Below, piece after piece: positions 28,590 to 37,815 of a stretch of 64,000 nucleotides of DNA. The stretch comes from Oligoflexia bacterium (GTDB lineage Bacteria > Bdellovibrionota > UBA1018). The stretch covers positions 1 through 64,000 of the forward strand of contig JACMNQ010000064.1 of assembly GCA_014378465.1 (NCBI GenBank), read 5' to 3'. The translations under genes were made by a program, and so were the position numbers. Position 1 is the stretch's first letter. Every line of letters begins with the position of its first letter. The notes below the pieces were generated by a model. The model had not been told where the DNA came from, searched no databases, and was given only the letters and a program-made list of their open reading frames with translations.

Positions 28590-30611
28590 TCAAGGATTCT
28601 CAGCTGCTGGCTGCCCGGCCACTGCGTGGCCGCTCGGCTTCAGTCCACCATCCACGAGGGTCATCTTGCCTTCTTTGACTTCGATGACGTCGCTGCGCTC
28701 CAGATCAAGCACTGAATTGACGAGTTTCACCGTGTAGTTGCCGGTCGGAACTTTCAGGTCTTCAAAGGGAGTGCTCTTGATGGCCCAGACTTTCCCATCC
28801 TGATAGATCGTGGCTTCCGCGCTCGGATTGACATGCACCGTGAGAAGGCCGAACTTTTCAGGCTCAAGGGAGACTTCCATGGTACTTTCAGTCGCACCTG
28901 CGAGCTGCATCGAAGTGAGCGAGAATTCCCGGTGAAACAGTTTGAAGCCCGGTCTCTCGACAGCGACATCCAGAGGGGTGTCCATGGGAACCATGAAGGG
29001 CTTGGTCATGTCGGCCACTTTGCCATTGAGGGAAACGGTAGCGCCAGGACCTGATGGAAAGAGATTGAGTTTGAGTTCGATCGTCTTCACATGGGTTGGA
29101 ACGCCGATGTTGTTCTGCGCGGTACTCTGGGTGATCTTGGATTCAGAGGCGATCACCCGATCCACTGGAGCCGCTTTTGGGTCATGAACGCCCGGAATCT
29201 TGATCCCGAACTGGGGACCGAAAAAGAAGATTCCGCCAAGCCCTGCGGCAACGAAGAGCGCGATCGTGGCCGAGCTCCCCTTCCTGGCACTGGACTGAGT
29301 CTGGTACGGGAGCTGAGCTCCGCCCATGCCCATCGAAGTTCGTGTGCCCTGCGCCGCCATGGTCTGAGTGGCTCGAGTTGCGGCGTGCGAATTCGTGGTG
29401 CGAGCCACCACCGAAGGAGGGGGAGTGACGGTGTTTCGTTTCTGACGATTGGGCAGATCAAACTCGACTGCCACCTTGAGTTCCTTGTTGTCGACCTTGA
29501 ATTCGGCGGACGCGGCTTTCTTCGGCTTTGTTTCTGAATCGACGAAAGTGGTCGTATCTTCGCGCATGCCGCCTTCGGAAATTGCGACTGCACCGACGAC
29601 GACCGGCAGATCATTCATCAGGAGCTGTTCGACCTTGTCATTGAGGCGCTGGATCTTCTTGCGATCTTCGACGATTTCGTCCTTGAAGAGATCCTTCAGG
29701 ACGTAGGAAAGATCGCTCGGATTGAAATCGGGAGCGTAGACATTCAGAAAGCGGTGCAAAGCGCGGGAAACTTCATCGCCAGTCTGGTAACGCTTGTCTC
29801 GTTGCTTGGCCAGCATCTTCATGACGATGTAATCCAGCTCTTTTGGAACGGCCGCATTGAGAATGGAGGGTGGCTTGACGGAAGTATTGCAGGCTTCGAT
29901 CTGCTTCAGGACGGCGAGGTCATTGTCGCCCGCGAAAAGCTTCTTGCCCGTGAGGAGTTCCCAGAAAACGATGCCCAGCGCGAAAATGTCACTTCGGCCG
30001 TCCAGCACTTCGCCGGTGATCTGCTCGGGAGAAAGATAACTCGGTTTGCCCTTGATGACTCCGGCGCGGGTCGCTTCGATATTGGACGCGGCTTTCGCGA
30101 TTCCGAAATCGATGACTTTGACGCTGCCTTCGTAGGACACGATGATGTTCTGAGGACTCACATCGCGATGAACGATCTGAAGCGGAGTGCCGCTGATCTT
30201 GTCTTTGAACGCATGCGCATAGTGAAGCGCTGTCGCGGACTGCTCGACGATGTACGCTGCAAGATCCACGGGGAAAGTCTGTTTGATCGCGGTGAAGCGA
30301 TTGAGAAATTGTCTGAGATTCTTGCCATCGACGAGTTCCATCGCGATGTAGGGCATCTCCTGCTCTTCACCGAAGTCGTAGAGCTGCACGATGTTGGGAT
30401 GATTGAACCCCATCGTGACTTTGATCTCGGATTTGAACATCTGGAGAAATTCGCTGTTGGCGCCGTAGCCGGCCTGAATGCGCTTGATGACGATCAGGCG
30501 TCCCGCACCATCGATCGCGGCCATGCGCGCTCGATAAATCTCCGCCATCCCGCCCTGAGCGATCTGGTCGAGGAGAAAGTAGCGACCGAATTTTTTGAGG
30601 ACTTCTGACAT
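28590..30611 (-). CDS. Membrane Ser/Thr protein kinase with extracytoplasmic PEGA-like tail
   Basis: 673 residues. Hanks-type kinase domain 8-280: glycine loop IAQGGMAEIY, VIKRI (K43), E62, catalytic loop VHRDVSPQN (D150), VIDFGIAKA (D168) and SYLSPEQITG. A cytoplasmic linker of about 140 residues is rich in Thr, Ser and Lys and contains many possible autophosphorylation sites. One membrane helix (about 440-462, TIALFVAAGLGGIFFF) leads to two PEGA-like beta modules (SLNGKVADMTKPFMV, LTVHVNPSAEATIYQDGKVW). VSPQN in place of LKPEN is common in bacterial kinases of this branch. The tail may sense envelope or wall signals. Confidence 0.93.
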   Translation of the reverse strand: MSEVLKKFGRYFLLDQIAQGGMAEIYRARMAAIDGAGRLIVIKRIQAGYGANSEFLQMFKSEIKVTMGFNHPNIVQLYDFGEEQEMPYIAMELVDGKNLRQFLNRFTAIKQTFPVDLAAYIVEQSATALHYAHAFKDKISGTPLQIVHRDVSPQNIIVSYEGSVKVIDFGIAKAASNIEATRAGVIKGKPSYLSPEQITGEVLDGRSDIFALGIVFWELLTGKKLFAGDNDLAVLKQIEACNTSVKPPSILNAAVPKELDYIVMKMLAKQRDKRYQTGDEVSRALHRFLNVYAPDFNPSDLSYVLKDLFKDEIVEDRKKIQRLNDKVEQLLMNDLPVVVGAVAISEGGMREDTTTFVDSETKPKKAASAEFKVDNKELKVAVEFDLPNRQKRNTVTPPPSVVARTTNSHAATRATQTMAAQGTRTSMGMGGAQLPYQTQSSARKGSSATIALFVAAGLGGIFFFGPQFGIKIPGVHDPKAAPVDRVIASESKITQSTAQNNIGVPTHVKTIELKLNLFPSGPGATVSLNGKVADMTKPFMVPMDTPLDVAVERPGFKLFHREFSLTSMQLAGATESTMEVSLEPEKFGLLTVHVNPSAEATIYQDGKVWAIKSTPFEDLKVPTGNYTVKLVNSVLDLERSDVIEVKEGKMTLVDGGLKPSGHAVAGQPAAENP

Positions 30612-30759
30612 TCATACCCCAGCGACGTTCAACAGATGGGTTTGAAGGAGATAAACACAGCTCTCCCTCTCCCTGACTGATCGGTGAATGGGGGCGAAAG
30701 CTTGAGCAGTATTGAGCAATTCATGAAGAATACAAACATCTGATATTGCTGGCGTATCT

Positions 30760-31353
30760 TCAGAATGTCACGCTCTGGGTGAGAGTAGGAAAGAAAGCTC
30801 CAGAAGTGTTTTCCAGAACATCAAACGTGATGACCTGCCACGCCTGGGAGCCCAGGATACTGAGTTGGCCCGCACCGCTGGAGAGATTCACTGCAGGACT
30901 GGCGGCGGTCGAACAATTCGAACCCGACCAGACTGAAAAGGTCACGCCTGGGACGTTGGATATCGGGTGGAGAATTACCGGCCTGCTTTCACTTGGGTCC
31001 ACGGTACCAGTGGCGTCAACCGAACGAACCTGGAACGGGTGACAGTACCCCGCAACGGTTCCAGGCGTGACTTCGAGTTTGTTCTTGGCAATCAGGGTAT
31101 CTGATGCGACTGGCAAACCCGCGGCACTCACCTGAATGGTGACAGGACCTGCCCCGATGTTCTTGAAGTAGAAGGTCTGAGTGCTCATTCCTCCAGGAAA
31201 ACTCGTCGCTCCAGTGGAGCAACTCGCGTTCGAATAGAGAATTCCGCTGTCTGTTGAACTGAAATTCAAGCCCAACGGAGACGGCACTGAGGCCTGATTG
31301 CCCGAACTGTCTTGAAGTTGCAATTGCACTGCAGAGCAACCCCTGTTCAGGAT
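30760..31353 (-). pseudogene. C-terminal part of an interrupted lipoprotein gene (Ig-like domain)
   Basis: The frame continues directly from the TGA that ends the 31354-32088 gene, without a shift. It runs from 31353 for nine codons, then to a GTG at 31329 that could restart a 189-residue product, and stops at 30760. The peptide CSAVQLQLQD...GLNFSS...FYFKNIGAGPVTIQVSAAG is an Ig-like module seen in surface proteins, here without any signal peptide. The simplest reading is one gene of about 442 codons split by a nonsense codon between its N-terminal lipoprotein domain and this module. A sequencing error would explain it equally well. Confidence 0.55.
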
Positions 31354-32088
31354 TCAATGAGGCTGAGTCGCATCAAAAGGATTGGGCAGAGGCAACCAGG
31401 CGAACTTTGCCGCAGCGCCTCCTCCACCGCTTCCGTCATGGCAATTGATCCTGCGAGCTCCAAGTGCGCTCGCATAGTTCGGGGCCAGTGGATTCGGAAA
31501 CTGGTTTTGAATCTCCACGGATTGATCGGAGAAGAGATCCACGGTGGCGCGGCCGAGTTCAAAAATTCCGGCATTGTCCGAACCCTGATCACCCAATCCT
31601 CGAGCGCAGATGCCCGTGCCATTGTCGAAAATTCCGACCATCTGGATGAGGCGTTTCGGCCCGGACGGTATTTGAAGGTCAATCTCCGCTGATGTTCCTC
31701 GCAACACGGGCTTGGAGAGGATTCCCGCATACCCACAGGAAGCACCATTCAGCATGGCCGGTAACCTGTAAACGTCCTCGCCTTTTCCATTTGAATCGCT
31801 GATTCCAGAGCCGACGACATTGACGGCGTAACAATCTGCATAACCGCTTGGAACGGGTTGCGGAGAAGAGAGGCCCACTTGCATGAGCGTGAATATCGGA
31901 GAGTTTTGTCCCAGATGACTGACCGATGCCTGGGAGTCAGAATGGCCGGTGGCGTCGATGGAAAAATAGAGGTGACTCTTCCCTTCCTCATGCGGACTGA
32001 GCGAACAACCGCTGACCACCAAGGCAGAAGCCATGGCAAGCGCAATGATCGAAGACTGAATTCGAACCGACGTGCAACGTGAATTCAT
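31354..32088 (-). CDS. Lipoprotein, N-terminal domain shared with the 1365-residue RCC1 protein
   Basis: 244 residues, ATG at 32088 with AAGG directly against it. Signal peptide with lipobox VVSGCS. The next 170 residues are clearly paralogous to residues 30-205 of the protein encoded at 32157-36254: CYAVNV(V/M)G.GI, C.Y(A/S)G..S.PV, IPSGPKRL(I/V)Q..GI, C....., ELGRA..DLFSD and INC. Even the leader bases and the first codons (MNSR.T.V) match. The domain has no family name I know. The gene ends at a TGA after a Gly-rich linker and probably once continued into the Ig-like module downstream. Confidence 0.75.
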   Translation of the reverse strand: MNSRCTSVRIQSSIIALAMASALVVSGCSLSPHEEGKSHLYFSIDATGHSDSQASVSHLGQNSPIFTLMQVGLSSPQPVPSGYADCYAVNVVGSGISDSNGKGEDVYRLPAMLNGASCGYAGILSKPVLRGTSAEIDLQIPSGPKRLIQMVGIFDNGTGICARGLGDQGSDNAGIFELGRATVDLFSDQSVEIQNQFPNPLAPNYASALGARRINCHDGSGGGGAAAKFAWLPLPNPFDATQPH

Positions 32089-32156
32089 CCTTAGAGTATG
32101 GATCGATTCGGTACTTCTGGGAAGGGGTGCAGATGGACCTGTGTCAAATTTGACTA

Positions 32157-35100
32157 TCAGGGCGCCATTGTGACGGATACAGGGAGAATTCGCAAACTAC
32201 TGCTTCCATCTCCAAGTTGTCCATATTCGGTTTTGCCCCAGCAGGATACGGAGGTCCCTGCGAGAGCGCAAGTATGACTCCCACCCGTCGAAACCTGGGT
32301 GACACTGCCGACCAACAAGGTGACATTGGTAGGAGAAGACTGAGGGACTTGATTTCCAAGTCCCAGCTCTCCAGATACATTGCCGCCCCAGCATTGCAAT
32401 GTATTGTCTGACTTGATCGCGCACGTGTGAACTCCACCGGCAGAAATTGAAAGTAGGCCCGAAGTCGACACTACTACAGGAATGTGCTGATCGCTTGTTC
32501 CCGCGTTTCCGAGTTGCCCTGAAGTTCCCTGTCCCCAGCATTTTGCCGTGGTTCCAACCAGCGCACAGGTGTGATTCTGGCCAGCTACAATCTGAGTTGC
32601 CCCTGTAAGACCCAAGACCGTGACCGGCACGCTGCTATTATTCAAAGTGGTATCTCCCAACTGTCCAGACACATTGTAACCCCAGCACTTGGCGGTTCCG
32701 TCCGTGAGCGTTGCGCAGGTGTGATAATCCCCTGCCGTGATATCAGCTGCCAGGCCCAGGCTTGATACAAGAGTCGGAGAAGCGCGAGCCGTCGTCGAAG
32801 CGTCGCCGACCTGTCCATAGGCATTATAGCCCCAGCATTTGACTGAACTGTCGGCCAGGAGCGCACAGGTATGCGAAAAACCAGTGACGATCTTCACGAC
32901 ATTTGTGAGAGATTGGACCATTGTATTGGGAATCGCTACGTCTCCAGAAGCTGCACCCAAACCCAGTTGGCCATGACCGTTTTGACCCCAGCACTTGGCA
33001 GTCGAAGTACTAAGCAGTGCACAAGTATGCCCCTGCCCGGCCGCAATTTGCAAAACGGCTCCTAGTGACAAAACGGCAGAAGGAACGAAGCTGTGAGTTT
33101 GAGTTCCGTTCCCCAATTGAGACGAACCGTTGAATCCCCAGCACTGAACTGTTTGATCAGACAGCAGGGCACAACTATGGGATTCTCCGGCAGCAACCTG
33201 TGAAACGTTCAGACCGAGCGAAACAGAGGCAGGAGACGCACGGTAGGCCAATGTTCCATCGCCGACTTGCCCCATCAAATTGTAACCCCAACATTTGACG
33301 TTGGATCCTCCGCTCACTGAGCAGGAATGATACCCTCCGGCTGATAGATCCGTCACGGGTGACAGGCCCGCGACCGGAGTTGGAGAGCTCTGCGCGGCAT
33401 AGTTGCCATTTCCGATCTGTCCGTAAGCATTGTAGCCCCAGCACTTCAAACTCTGATCGGTCATCTGAGCACAAGTATGATTTCCGCCCGCAGTCACCCG
33501 CTGCACTCCTGTCAAAGAAGGGCTGGCGGGAGGCACCGTCTGATTTCCTGAAGGCGCAAACCCCAATTGCCCGAATCCATTTTGACCCCAGCATTTTATG
33601 GAAGCATCGGTGAGTAGTGCACAGACGTGGTTGAATCCGACTGTTACGCTTGTCACGTTGGAGATCGAAGAAACCGGCACCGGAGACCACTGATCAGAAA
33701 GAGTCCCATTTCCTATTTGACCATTTGCATTGGCACCCCAGCACTTTACTGTACCGGTCGACAGTACAGCGCAAGTCTGGGCGGCGCCGCCTGCGATTGC
33801 AATGACCCCTCCTAAACCCGCTATGGTCACTGGTAGAAGTGAATTCGCGATCGAGCCAATCCCCAATTGTCCCGCCGAATTGCCTCCCCAGCATTTCACT
33901 GTGTTGTCACTCAGGAGCGCGCAGGTATGATAGTCGCCGGCCGCGACCGCAACTGCTCCGCTCACTCCGGTCACGATTCCAGGACTGGAGCTGCCCACTT
34001 GCGTTCCGTTTCCAAGACTACCGGAACTATTGCCTCCCCAGCACCAGACGGTCTGATCACTTTTGAGTGCACAACTATGAGAATATCCAGAAACGACTTG
34101 GGTCACTCCACTGAAGGATGGAATTTTAACGGGTGATATACGGCCGACTACGGTACCATCCCCCAATTGCCCCAGGTAATTCTGCCCCCAGCACTGGACT
34201 GTGGAATCAATCATTACAGCGCAGTTATGCCAGCTTCCGGCCGAAAGCTTGATGGTCGGTACAGGTAGTACCCCAGTGCCTTGAACAGGGCGAGTCGTAT
34301 TGGTTGTTCCGAGTCCGTTGCCGTAACCGAGAGTCAAAGTCTGGCTGAGCGTCCCTGCCGAGGTTGGCGCATAAGTGATGACCAGGCTGCAACTACTCGT
34401 GATCGATGCTCCACAAGTGCCACCGATTCCGGGGTAAGATCCGCCTTTGAAGGAGTAGGGTGAAGAAAGTCCTGAGACCGTGACCGCGGTTGCTGTAACG
34501 GTTCCTGTCTGACTCACTGTCAGAGTTTTATCTCGAAGGGTCCCCAAGGGAACCGGTCCGAAGTCGACGGTTGCACCATCTGAAATACTCAAGAGCGCGG
34601 GAGTACCGATAACCAAAACTGCCGCTGTATTCACGGCGGGATAAGTCATCATCGACAGCAAGTTTCCCGCGCCATCCTGAATAGTCCCACCCGATAACAG
34701 TATCGAATTATTGAGAGCGATACCGTCCGTATCCAGGTCGACTGCGGTCACCAGATATCGAAATAGGGCAGTGCTGCCGGTTGCGGAACTATACACTGCA
34801 TTGACACTGGTTGAACCCAGTACAAACGGAAGCTTTGGCACACCTCCTGTTGTGTTGAAAGTAACCGGCTCTGAGAACGTCACGGAAAAGACCAGATCCT
34901 GTCCCTGAGTGTAAGTTCCTGGAGCGATGGAAACGCCGGATAGAGTCGGTGCGGTGCTATCCACAAGCACTGCGGTCGTATTGGGCGGATTGAACGTCAA
35001 CACAGCATTGTGCGCACTTACATCCTGGATCGTTCCACCGTTCAGATCCAAAGGCGAAGTCAGAGTGATGCCGTCATTATCCGTATCCGGGGCGACTACT

Positions 35101-36254
35101 GTATAACGGTAAACCAAGGCTGAAGTGCCACTGCCGGAGAATAGATTTGCGTAGCGAGTCACTCCACCGATATCGAGAGCGATGCGAGTCACGGCTACTG
35201 CAGTGACATTCGCTGAAAAATTTGCTGTGAAATCAAGATTTGAACCTAATTTGTAAGAAAGATTCGCAGGTGGCGTAACACTGGTGAGTACGGGCCCTGC
35301 GCTCCCCACCATAATTCCGCTGGTCACCGGAACCGTATAAGAAACGGGAGCGGTGAGTCCATCCACGCCTTTGATGATGCCACCATTCAAGCTGATTGAA
35401 GAAGCGAGCACAATTCCGTCGGCATCAAAATCACCCGCCACAACCGTGTACCGATAGACGAGGGATGCCGTTCCTGAACCCGCGAAGTAAAGTGCATTCC
35501 GAGTCGCCGCACCGATCACGAGGTCAATGGAGGTCACTGCCGAAGCTGTGACAGGCCCCGAAAACTGGACCGTGAAATCAAGATTGTTTCCCGCCGTATA
35601 AGTCCCGTCTGCTGGCGTCGCGAGATCAACCAGGCTCAACTGCTCACAGTTGATCTTACGCGTTACTTTTTCACTCGCGGTCAAACTCGTATATCGATTG
35701 CTGATCTGAACAGTCGTATCTGAAAAAAGGTCAGCCACCGCTCTGCCGAGCTCATAGTAAACGGCCTGATCGCTCCTTACACTTCCTATCGACCCACTCT
35801 GGCCACAGACCTCGTTCGCGGGATCAGAAATCCCGATCACCTGAACCAGACGCTTCGGTCCACTCGGGATCTGCATTTCAAGATCGGCTGACTGTCCTGC
35901 GGAAACAGGCGATGACATCACACCTGAATAGGAACAATAGGATTTTTCTGCAAGGAGCGCGTCCCATTTGAGGGGATCCTGAGTGCGCCCATGGATATCG
36001 GCAATGCCCTCACCCATTACATTCACGGCATAACAGGAAAAATTCGGAACTGCTGGAGTGATCCCCAGGATTTGGTCACTGAAACGACGCAGAGCCGAAG
36101 GCTGCGACGGCCCTTCAATCGCGAGTCGCAGTCGGCTCGTACCCGCATGCCGCGGGCCCAATGAGCATCCGCTCACCAAAACGGCTGAGAGAAGCGCCAA
36201 ACTGGGCGCAAGTGATCGAAACGGAATTCCAACAAACGTTCTACGTGAATTCAC
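32157..36254 (-). CDS. Large surface lipoprotein: novel N-domain, three Ig-like repeats, ASPM-like domain, 14 RCC1 blades
   Basis: 1365 residues from a GTG at 36254. Lipobox LVSGC (C30). Residues 31-205 form the domain shared with the 31354-32088 lipoprotein. Three repeats of about 110 residues (210-315, 320-432, 435-550) each carry a pattern of G..L.F.V.FS.PV, then (L/F).YR(Y)...D.D.DGI.L, then L(N/S)GG.I.D. A beta-sandwich of the choice-of-anchor D type covers 555-662 (VDFGPVPLGTLRDKTLTV). From 667 to the end there are 14 RCC1-type repeats, each H-x-C-A...CWG..G.GQLG, so two seven-bladed propellers are possible. Every repeat keeps two Cys. It should be surface-exposed and adhesive or ligand-binding; the ligand is unknown. 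Confidence 0.9.
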   Translation of the reverse strand: MNSRRTFVGIPFRSLAPSLALLSAVLVSGCSLGPRHAGTSRLRLAIEGPSQPSALRRFSDQILGITPAVPNFSCYAVNVMGEGIADIHGRTQDPLKWDALLAEKSYCSYSGVMSSPVSAGQSADLEMQIPSGPKRLVQVIGISDPANEVCGQSGSIGSVRSDQAVYYELGRAVADLFSDTTVQISNRYTSLTASEKVTRKINCEQLSLVDLATPADGTYTAGNNLDFTVQFSGPVTASAVTSIDLVIGAATRNALYFAGSGTASLVYRYTVVAGDFDADGIVLASSISLNGGIIKGVDGLTAPVSYTVPVTSGIMVGSAGPVLTSVTPPANLSYKLGSNLDFTANFSANVTAVAVTRIALDIGGVTRYANLFSGSGTSALVYRYTVVAPDTDNDGITLTSPLDLNGGTIQDVSAHNAVLTFNPPNTTAVLVDSTAPTLSGVSIAPGTYTQGQDLVFSVTFSEPVTFNTTGGVPKLPFVLGSTSVNAVYSSATGSTALFRYLVTAVDLDTDGIALNNSILLSGGTIQDGAGNLLSMMTYPAVNTAAVLVIGTPALLSISDGATVDFGPVPLGTLRDKTLTVSQTGTVTATAVTVSGLSSPYSFKGGSYPGIGGTCGASITSSCSLVITYAPTSAGTLSQTLTLGYGNGLGTTNTTRPVQGTGVLPVPTIKLSAGSWHNCAVMIDSTVQCWGQNYLGQLGDGTVVGRISPVKIPSFSGVTQVVSGYSHSCALKSDQTVWCWGGNSSGSLGNGTQVGSSSPGIVTGVSGAVAVAAGDYHTCALLSDNTVKCWGGNSAGQLGIGSIANSLLPVTIAGLGGVIAIAGGAAQTCAVLSTGTVKCWGANANGQIGNGTLSDQWSPVPVSSISNVTSVTVGFNHVCALLTDASIKCWGQNGFGQLGFAPSGNQTVPPASPSLTGVQRVTAGGNHTCAQMTDQSLKCWGYNAYGQIGNGNYAAQSSPTPVAGLSPVTDLSAGGYHSCSVSGGSNVKCWGYNLMGQVGDGTLAYRASPASVSLGLNVSQVAAGESHSCALLSDQTVQCWGFNGSSQLGNGTQTHSFVPSAVLSLGAVLQIAAGQGHTCALLSTSTAKCWGQNGHGQLGLGAASGDVAIPNTMVQSLTNVVKIVTGFSHTCALLADSSVKCWGYNAYGQVGDASTTARASPTLVSSLGLAADITAGDYHTCATLTDGTAKCWGYNVSGQLGDTTLNNSSVPVTVLGLTGATQIVAGQNHTCALVGTTAKCWGQGTSGQLGNAGTSDQHIPVVVSTSGLLSISAGGVHTCAIKSDNTLQCWGGNVSGELGLGNQVPQSSPTNVTLLVGSVTQVSTGGSHTCALAGTSVSCWGKTEYGQLGDGSSSLRILPVSVTMAP

Positions 36255-36342
36255 TCTTCAAGTATGAACGAGCCATCACTTTTTTAAATGTTACAGTTTT
36301 GACTGCGGCAAAGTTGACCTAGCGAACCGGTCAAATCAGCGA

Positions 36343-37815
36343 TCAACCCTGCTTGATCGCGTCCAGAAGCTTCGGGATGAATCCACCAAAGCCTCCGTTC
36401 GAAAGCACCGCAACCAAATCACCCGATTTTGCAAATGCAGCAACCTGAGCAACGCCCTCTTCGACGGTATTCATCAGATGTCCGGACTTGCCCCGTCCGG
36501 AAATATCATCGACGAGTTGATCACTCGAAAATTGATCGTCTGACGAGATCTTGCTCTGATCGAAAGGAACCATGATGAAAGTCGCGTCAGCTTCGTCAAA
36601 GGCGATGGCGTAATCCTTCTGAAAAACCTTGCGGCGGGAAGTCGCGCTTCGAGGTTCAAACACGGCCACGATGCGGCGATCCGGGTATTTGGAGCGCAGG
36701 CCCTTCAACGTTTCGCGAACGGCAGTCGGATGATGAGCGAAATCATCCATGACCATCACGCCGCGAGCTTCTCCTCGAATTTCCTGGCGACGCTTCACGC
36801 CTTGAAAGGTCGAGAGCCCTGTATGAATCTGCTCAGGATTCAGGCCCAGTTCACGGCATTCGATCCAGACCGCAAGCGCGTTGAGCACATTGTGATTGCC
36901 GGACATGAGGGTCGTGACTTCGTCGACCTTGCGGTCCCCCTCCATCACGTCAAAGCGGGTCTTCTCATTCTCCACTCTCACGCGCGCAGGAGCAAAACGA
37001 ATTCCAGCGGCGGGCGCGCTCCCGTAAGTGATGACTTGCGTCCCGAGCTTCGCAGCCTGAGCGGCAAGGTCCTTGATCGCGGGATACTCAAAGCACGCGA
37101 TGAGCTTCCCGCCCGGGCGAATGCGAGTGATCAGACCTTCGAAAGCCCGAACCACGGCTGCGAAGTCCGGATAGATGTCCGCATGGTCGTACTCGACCGA
37201 AGTGAGAATCGCATCATCAGGCAGGTAGTGATTGAATTTCGGAACCTTGTCCCAGAATGCCGTGTCGTACTCGTCTCCTTCAAGAATGAAGGGATGGCCT
37301 TTGCCAACATTCGGCACATTGAAGCTGAAAGGAAGGTCGTGAGCGACCCCACCGATGAAGTAATTGGGATCTCTTCCCGCAGTCACCAGGACATGGGCCA
37401 GCAGACTCGAAGTTGTGGTCTTGCCGTGAGTCCCCGAAACGCAGAGGTTGCGAGTGTTCTGAAGCAGAAGTTTCTCCATCGCTTCCGGAAGCGAAGAATA
37501 GCAGTAGCCCTCGTCAATCGCGGCGCGCGCTTCCGGATTCTGAGCATTGATCACGTTGCCGATGACGACCAGATCCGGCTTCGCGCCTGAAGCATTGAGA
37601 TTTTCGGCGCGGTAACCACTGTAAAGCTGAATGCCGGCTTTCGTGAGCACGTCACTCATGGGAGGGTACACGTTCTGGTCACTGCCGGTGACCGCGATCC
37701 CACGGCGCTTCAGAAACGCGGCGAACGCGCCCATGAGTGTTCCACACACTCCGATGATGTGAACGCTTTTGAGGTTTTCAAGATGTGGCAACGCTGCTTT
37801 AGTTGGATGAGCCAT
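36343..37815 (-). CDS. mpl: UDP-N-acetylmuramate:L-alanyl-gamma-D-glutamyl-meso-diaminopimelate ligase
   Basis: 490 residues. Mur-ligase fold: VHIIGVCGTLMGAFAAFLK at the N-terminus, the P-loop in VSGTHGKTTTSSLL, FILEGDEYDTAFWDK, LTSVEYDHADIYP and SGNHNVLNALA; the third domain has DDFAHHPTAV and FEPRSATSRRKVFQ. FIGGVAHDLPFSF and the EGDEYD/DDFAHHP set distinguish Mpl from MurC. It recycles the cell-wall tripeptide onto UDP-MurNAc in the cytoplasm. It stands next to a serine hydrolase (21 nt) in a run of wall-related genes. Confidence 0.95.
   Translation of the reverse strand: MAHPTKAALPHLENLKSVHIIGVCGTLMGAFAAFLKRRGIAVTGSDQNVYPPMSDVLTKAGIQLYSGYRAENLNASGAKPDLVVIGNVINAQNPEARAAIDEGYCYSSLPEAMEKLLLQNTRNLCVSGTHGKTTTSSLLAHVLVTAGRDPNYFIGGVAHDLPFSFNVPNVGKGHPFILEGDEYDTAFWDKVPKFNHYLPDDAILTSVEYDHADIYPDFAAVVRAFEGLITRIRPGGKLIACFEYPAIKDLAAQAAKLGTQVITYGSAPAAGIRFAPARVRVENEKTRFDVMEGDRKVDEVTTLMSGNHNVLNALAVWIECRELGLNPEQIHTGLSTFQGVKRRQEIRGEARGVMVMDDFAHHPTAVRETLKGLRSKYPDRRIVAVFEPRSATSRRKVFQKDYAIAFDEADATFIMVPFDQSKISSDDQFSSDQLVDDISGRGKSGHLMNTVEEGVAQVAAFAKSGDLVAVLSNGGFGGFIPKLLDAIKQG

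Follow-up and report, generated by a model that had tools for sequence, protein, structure and literature searches.

Introduction

To our knowledge, few proteins of prey or surface recognition are known from Bdellovibrio-like bacteria, and the best described of these are trimeric fibres. The mosaic adhesive trimer (MAT) fibres of Bdellovibrio bacteriovorus are trimeric fibre proteins that serve surface recognition (PMC10769870). Elsewhere, Slam-dependent surface lipoproteins, including TbpB and fHbp, have been described (PMC5449769, PMC8406197, PMC9090332). Here, we describe two neighbouring lipoprotein genes, A and B, in a stretch of 64,000 nucleotides from an Oligoflexia bacterium of the Bdellovibrionota (assembly GCA_014378465.1, contig JACMNQ010000064.1, positions 1 to 64,000 of the forward strand), referred to below as the window. 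Their products share an N-terminal domain (the N-domain), and both probably belong to an unnamed outer-envelope lipoprotein family in which a lipid-anchored head carries swappable binding modules.

MAT fibres and Slam cargo appear to be the nearest systems that work alike. As with MAT fibres, the N-domain family would be a surface-recognition set, in most likely the same phylum, that combines a common scaffold part with diversified adhesive tips. MAT fibres are trimeric, however, whereas the N-domain proteins are predicted to be lipidated, have a different N-terminal domain and carry propeller, LamG and immunoglobulin (Ig) modules; Pfam found no tail-fibre domain in those that were scanned. 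As with Slam cargo, the lipoprotein genes lie beside a gene encoding TPRs and an outer-membrane barrel, but the conserved part of the N-domain family is N-terminal and has no Pfam match, and its barrel protein scores under the Slam cut-offs. Judged by the marks that we tested, N-domain proteins would not belong to the Slam cargo, as the C-terminal eight-stranded barrel handle (TbpB_B_D) was not found in those scanned by Pfam. Finally, bacterial RCC1 proteins such as MXAN_0889, an RCC1-repeat (PF00415/PF13540) protein in Myxococcus outer membrane vesicles (PMC4158809), resemble B in that B has 14 clear RCC1 blades, but the propellers of B are joined to Ig-like repeats and a new lipoprotein head. 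A text search of a literature collection found no paper linking RCC1, Bdellovibrio and lipoprotein.

Results

Genes A and B share an N-terminal lipoprotein domain

The features of the two genes, given in positions of the window, are as follows.

31354..32088, minus strand: gene A, as read a 244-residue lipoprotein with a signal peptide, lipobox, N-domain, short Gly-rich linker and the start of an Ig-like repeat
31441..32007, minus strand: N-domain of A, which starts at the lipobox Cys (residue 28) and extends to the last conserved Cys region
32157-36254, minus strand: gene B, an intact lipoprotein gene
35643..36167, minus strand: N-domain of B, starting at the lipobox Cys (residue 30) and ending at residue 204, with the near-invariant Cys74, Cys107, Cys150, Cys203, Gly132 and Arg135
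34620..35642, minus strand: Ig-like region of B with three repeats, whose D-x-D-x-DGI-x-L motifs lie at residues 275, 390 and 506, and with a weak Big_5 match
34302..34586, minus strand: ASH/HYDIN-type Ig-like domain of B (residues 557-651)
32160..34256, minus strand: 14 RCC1 blades of B, spaced by about 50 residues, with 14 CWG motifs
32040..32100, minus strand: start region of A that matches that of B, 80.6% over 62 base pairs (bp)
36206..36266, minus strand: start region of B that matches that of A, 80.6% over 62 bp

By BLASTP, the N-terminal parts of A and B were 40% identical over 221 residues (E = 4e-40), which confirms the common domain of about 175 residues that a preliminary description of the locus had placed after the lipobox of both products. 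In the N-domain profile search, A matched at 4.5e-47, and the search of its own genome marked positions 31441-32088. The signal peptide is followed by a lipobox in each protein (...VVSGC/SL in A and ...LVSGC/SL in B). Both sequences therefore have the N-terminal signal and the lipobox ending in Cys by which bacterial lipoproteins are recognized, and lipidation is predicted.

The matching bases previously noted around the two starts were also recovered, with E values of about 2e-10 to 6e-9. This stretch is unusually conserved, given that third codon positions elsewhere in the N-domains of A and B are only 31% identical. It may be a shared regulatory element or the product of local gene conversion, the remaining N-domain DNA being saturated at third positions.

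The N-domain is an unnamed family with many members in one phylum

Within the source genome, a search for further copies found one more, on contig C8, in a 488-residue lipoprotein whose C-terminal module has no name. A single-sequence search detected the N-domain in 35 of 58 relatives, and an iterated profile collected 65 open reading frames (ORFs) from near relatives; in these the domain was N-terminal, nearly all had a lipobox, and tandem copies were frequent. With a 59-row profile, run over one phylum (369 genomes of 182 genera), the N-domain was found in 134 genomes and 84 genera, and is thus not confined to A and B. Plasmid records contained no N-domain match, and a contig scan with protein A as the single query likewise returned none. 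The 59-row alignment was too diverse for a pattern search, and a pattern made from an 11-row alignment found four loci only, being too narrow to bound the occurrence of the domain outside the phylum.

Across the 59 sequences, the lipobox Cys (Cys30 of B) was the sole invariant column. Cys74, Gly81, Cys107, Gly111, Gly132, Arg135, Cys150 and Cys203 (B numbering) were near-invariant, and the four cysteines amongst them suggest two disulphides. No Pfam family matched any of the 59 members (criterion, E <= 0.01 in several members), NCBIfam gave one chance-level match in a single member, and no match was found amongst PDB sequences. By these searches, the N-domain is an unnamed family in Pfam and NCBIfam, and not a named family with another role.

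Two AlphaFold models, from eight sequences, showed the same order of elements, with predicted local distance difference test (pLDDT) scores of 69 and 65 and a predicted template modelling (pTM) score of 0.67. When both models were compared with the PDB using Foldseek, Bacteroidetes fimbrillin/Mfa-type lipoproteins and other prealbumin-like sandwiches came near the top, none of them significantly (for the fimbrillin/Mfa2-type matches, E 0.05 to 0.3 and a template modelling score of about 0.3). The Bacteroidetes fimbrillin and anchor lipoproteins (Mfa2, Mfa3, DUF1812) are outer-membrane lipoproteins, as the N-domain proteins are predicted to be, but have no sequence match with the N-domain. A fimbrillin or prealbumin-like topology is only a lead.

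N-domain heads carry exchangeable C-terminal modules

The Ig-like repeats and RCC1 blades that the preliminary description had attributed to B were both found. The RCC1 assignment was clear: PF25390 matched at E = 6e-141, PF00415 and PF13540 each matched 14 stretches, and PF00415 reached 353.7 bits against a cut-off of 21.7. With blades of about 50 residues arranged in sevens, B is predicted to form two seven-bladed RCC1 propellers. The ASH/HYDIN-type domain that precedes them matched PF15780 (E = 4e-4) and PF22544 (E = 0.013), both below the curated cut-offs.

In about 54 N-domain proteins scanned with Pfam, the modules behind the N-domain comprised RCC1 (12), Kelch, NHL/SBBP, DUF5122, FG-GAP and BNR propellers, as well as LamG, fn3, Calx-beta, cadherin-like and several Ig types. 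G190-type genomes have an RCC1 member of 898 residues (L123). These look like binding modules rather than the effector modules proposed earlier. On a tree of 85 N-domains, module labels, available for 39 rows, changed 23 times against a mean of 23.6 when shuffled, so module type does not appear to be inherited with the head; many inner branches of this tree were weak, which limits the power of the test. Well-supported sister pairs with different modules, i.e., RCC1/Kelch twice and LamG/NHL, stand on their own as evidence of swapping, independently of the tree-wide test. Examples are the adjacent copies in genome G029 (Kelch and RCC1) and the LamG protein L034 with the NHL proteins L054/L055. 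In addition, the slot before tex holds an N-domain gene in G024 as well as in the source genome and in G001, which belongs to the same genus as the source, and the C-termini encoded there by the source genome and G001 are unrelated. Taken together, the random placement of labels, the differing sister pairs and the differing tex-slot C-termini within one genus strongly support the module swapping that had been suggested from A and B.

The source genome also contains at least 14 other RCC1-propeller ORFs, of up to 3218 residues, whose exported or lipoprotein N-termini are of several other kinds. Among these alternative heads, one recurs, with the approximate sequence CGLKLN...STKTPSFQV..LP.GS.VELL.NAD.NC. 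Because RCC1 propellers also occur on these other heads, heads and propellers assort in both directions. The ORFs concerned include the following.

Contigs C57, C42, C47, C62, C1, C32, C52, C73, C39, C24, C70 and C72: other RCC1-propeller ORFs, L101-L112

FecR and TPR-barrel genes recur beside N-domain genes

At 24 loci in 22 genomes, the N-domain gene adjoins a gene whose exported product has a clear FecR domain (PF04773, up to 67 bits), and usually follows that gene directly in the same orientation. Most of these loci also have a divergent gene encoding a protein of about 540 residues that combines TPRs at the N-terminus with a putative outer-membrane barrel at the C-terminus (the TPR-barrel protein), so that TPR-barrel, FecR and N-domain genes stand side by side in many loci, as expected of a Slam gene beside its lipoprotein cargo gene. 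The divergent FecR/TPR-barrel pair is conserved across the order. In the source genome it lies on contig C65 (L156:5015-7685) with no N-domain gene adjoining, and a conserved partner was sought beside A and B, where the neighbours were only two ordinary genes, for a kinase and mpl.

Could the TPR-barrel protein be a distant Slam (type 11) translocon, with the N-domain taking over, as export signal, the part that the C-terminal barrel plays in known Slam substrates? This would be compatible with the lipoprotein family proposed above, and we consider it possible but somewhat unlikely. The TPR-then-barrel order is that of Slam, the divergent pair adjoins a lipoprotein gene, and one member had matches to TPR_Slam and SlipAM in the right order. 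Amongst the 58 relatives, the TPR-barrel gene was present in 40 of 46 N-domain genomes vs 3 of 12 others (Fisher p = 7e-5, in a test that ignores kinship and scores two fragmentary or divergent cases as present). The Slam matches were, however, both under the curated cut-offs, and few members gave them: TPR_Slam reached E = 1e-5 and at best 26.4 of the 35.2 bits needed, and SlipAM (DUF560) matched one of six proteins scanned, over residues 253-460, with E = 0.034 and at best 14.1 of 22 bits. As NCBIfam TPR models of other kinds match the protein too, "Slam-like" describes a layout and not membership. Moreover, many N-domain genomes have no TPR-barrel protein, including G010, G015, G028 and G011. 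It is doubtful, though worth stating, that the N-domain is the N-terminal export and anchoring handle of a distantly Slam-like pathway, with a TPR-barrel translocon and a FecR partner, that could display almost any binding module and so furnish predators with a shuffled repertoire for prey contact.

Gene A is a truncated member

Gene A ends at an in-frame TGA at 31354-31356. The stop lies within the first Ig-like repeat, immediately before the first conserved Cys of that repeat, and the Ig-like ORF at 30760-31329 is in the frame of gene A, with this single TGA between them.

30760..31353, minus strand: continuation of the frame of A past the TGA, with two Ig-like repeats, to the next stop (TGA, 30760-30762)

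Gene A thus represents a family member that is truncated, or was broken very recently, next to the intact gene B. The fusion of A to an Ig-like module, as first described, is rejected as an intact protein, since the product as read stops at the TGA.

Beyond the stop, the frame remains open for 197 codons (chance about 6e-4 for the composition of the tail), and, when the stop was set as an unknown residue, the tail matched Ig-like repeats that occur in tandem in long ORFs of relatives. The tail was thus probably coding until recently. In genome G007, an N-domain protein weakly matches a repeat of this type in its own frame. The large ORFs L114, L115, L117 and others (933-4186 residues) carry tandem Ig-like repeats of the A-tail type with conserved Cys, and Pfam has no name for these repeats.

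The open frame and the matching repeats would also fit regulated read-through of the TGA, or an assembly error in what is a draft of 82 contigs, such that a full N-domain and Ig-like protein is made. We regard this as unlikely: TGA is an ordinary stop in the source genome, where it terminates B, the kinase gene and mpl, and no signal for read-through is known here, none having been searched for.

The site of A and B is variable

Two genes border the site.

28590..30611, minus strand: Ser/Thr protein kinase gene
36343..37815, minus strand: Mur ligase (mpl-like) gene

The kinase gene and mpl are directly adjacent in G007 and G006, where the site is empty. In G001, of the same genus, the site holds an unrelated 934-residue exported protein with a carboxypeptidase-regulatory-like domain. 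The kinase-mpl site (window 28590-37815; L154, L149, L148) is a possible insertion hot spot.

Discussion

We propose that A and B belong to a family of lipid-anchored heads with exchangeable binding modules. From what is established for lipoproteins, these proteins would leave the cytoplasm through Sec, receive a lipid at the lipobox Cys and, with Ser at position +2 in both A and B, be sorted to the outer membrane. The N-domain, of about 175 residues, mixed beta structure and conserved Cys, Gly and Arg, would form a disulphide-stabilised head close to the membrane. Behind it would stand the exchangeable modules, with Ig-like repeats as a stalk and a propeller or lectin-like module as its tip, presumably facing outwards and binding ligands. 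In B, an Ig-like stalk would hold up the two seven-bladed RCC1 propellers, and A would originally have followed the same plan with two Ig-like repeats before a stop codon cut it. New genes would arise when the head is duplicated, often in tandem, and becomes joined to new C-termini. Where present, the FecR and TPR-barrel pair may aid export.

Several points weigh against this proposal. Surface exposure of the N-domain lipoproteins and their ligand binding are steps that we infer, the confidence of the structure models is modest, and no significant fold match accompanies them. Because about one third of the scanned C-termini lack a named module, binding tips may not be general. The TPR-barrel gene was found in only 48 genomes of the phylum, nearly all in the order to which the window belongs, compared with 134 for the N-domain, and so cannot be a universal partner. 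Gene A itself may be a dead gene.

Alternatively, the family might face the periplasm, with the N-domain in a periplasmic assembly together with the FecR and TPR-barrel proteins, and the C-termini acting as periplasmic interaction scaffolds rather than surface tips. FecR domains are known mostly from periplasmic signalling, and TPRs and propellers are general interaction modules. Most of the 24 loci have the FecR gene immediately ahead of the N-domain gene, and the FecR/TPR-barrel pair persists without an adjoining N-domain gene. The rapid turnover and variety of the C-termini, however, suit outward recognition better than fixed internal partners, and RCC1 propellers are also carried by giant exported proteins of the source genome, which leads us to judge a periplasmic role quite improbable. 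That A and B are plain local paralogues whose C-termini differ through decay and not modular exchange is very improbable, as their adjacency, their position as sisters on the tree (support 91), their common start region and the stop codon in A would suggest it, but the C-terminal domain types are unrelated folds scattered over the tree at random, and the pattern recurs in the adjacent RCC1 and Kelch copies of G029.

The lipid-anchored family proposed here bears on the biology of a phylum that includes bacterial predators, in which the N-domain is a possible common base for cell-surface recognition proteins. Its recurrent FecR and TPR-barrel neighbours offer a concrete candidate export route, and, with the domain as a marker, many "hypothetical lipoproteins" and RCC1 proteins of the phylum can be grouped in annotation. 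If our proposal is true, the N-domain family would be a second modular recognition repertoire, in which an unnamed, phylum-wide head is combined with propeller, lectin-like and Ig modules assorted at random.
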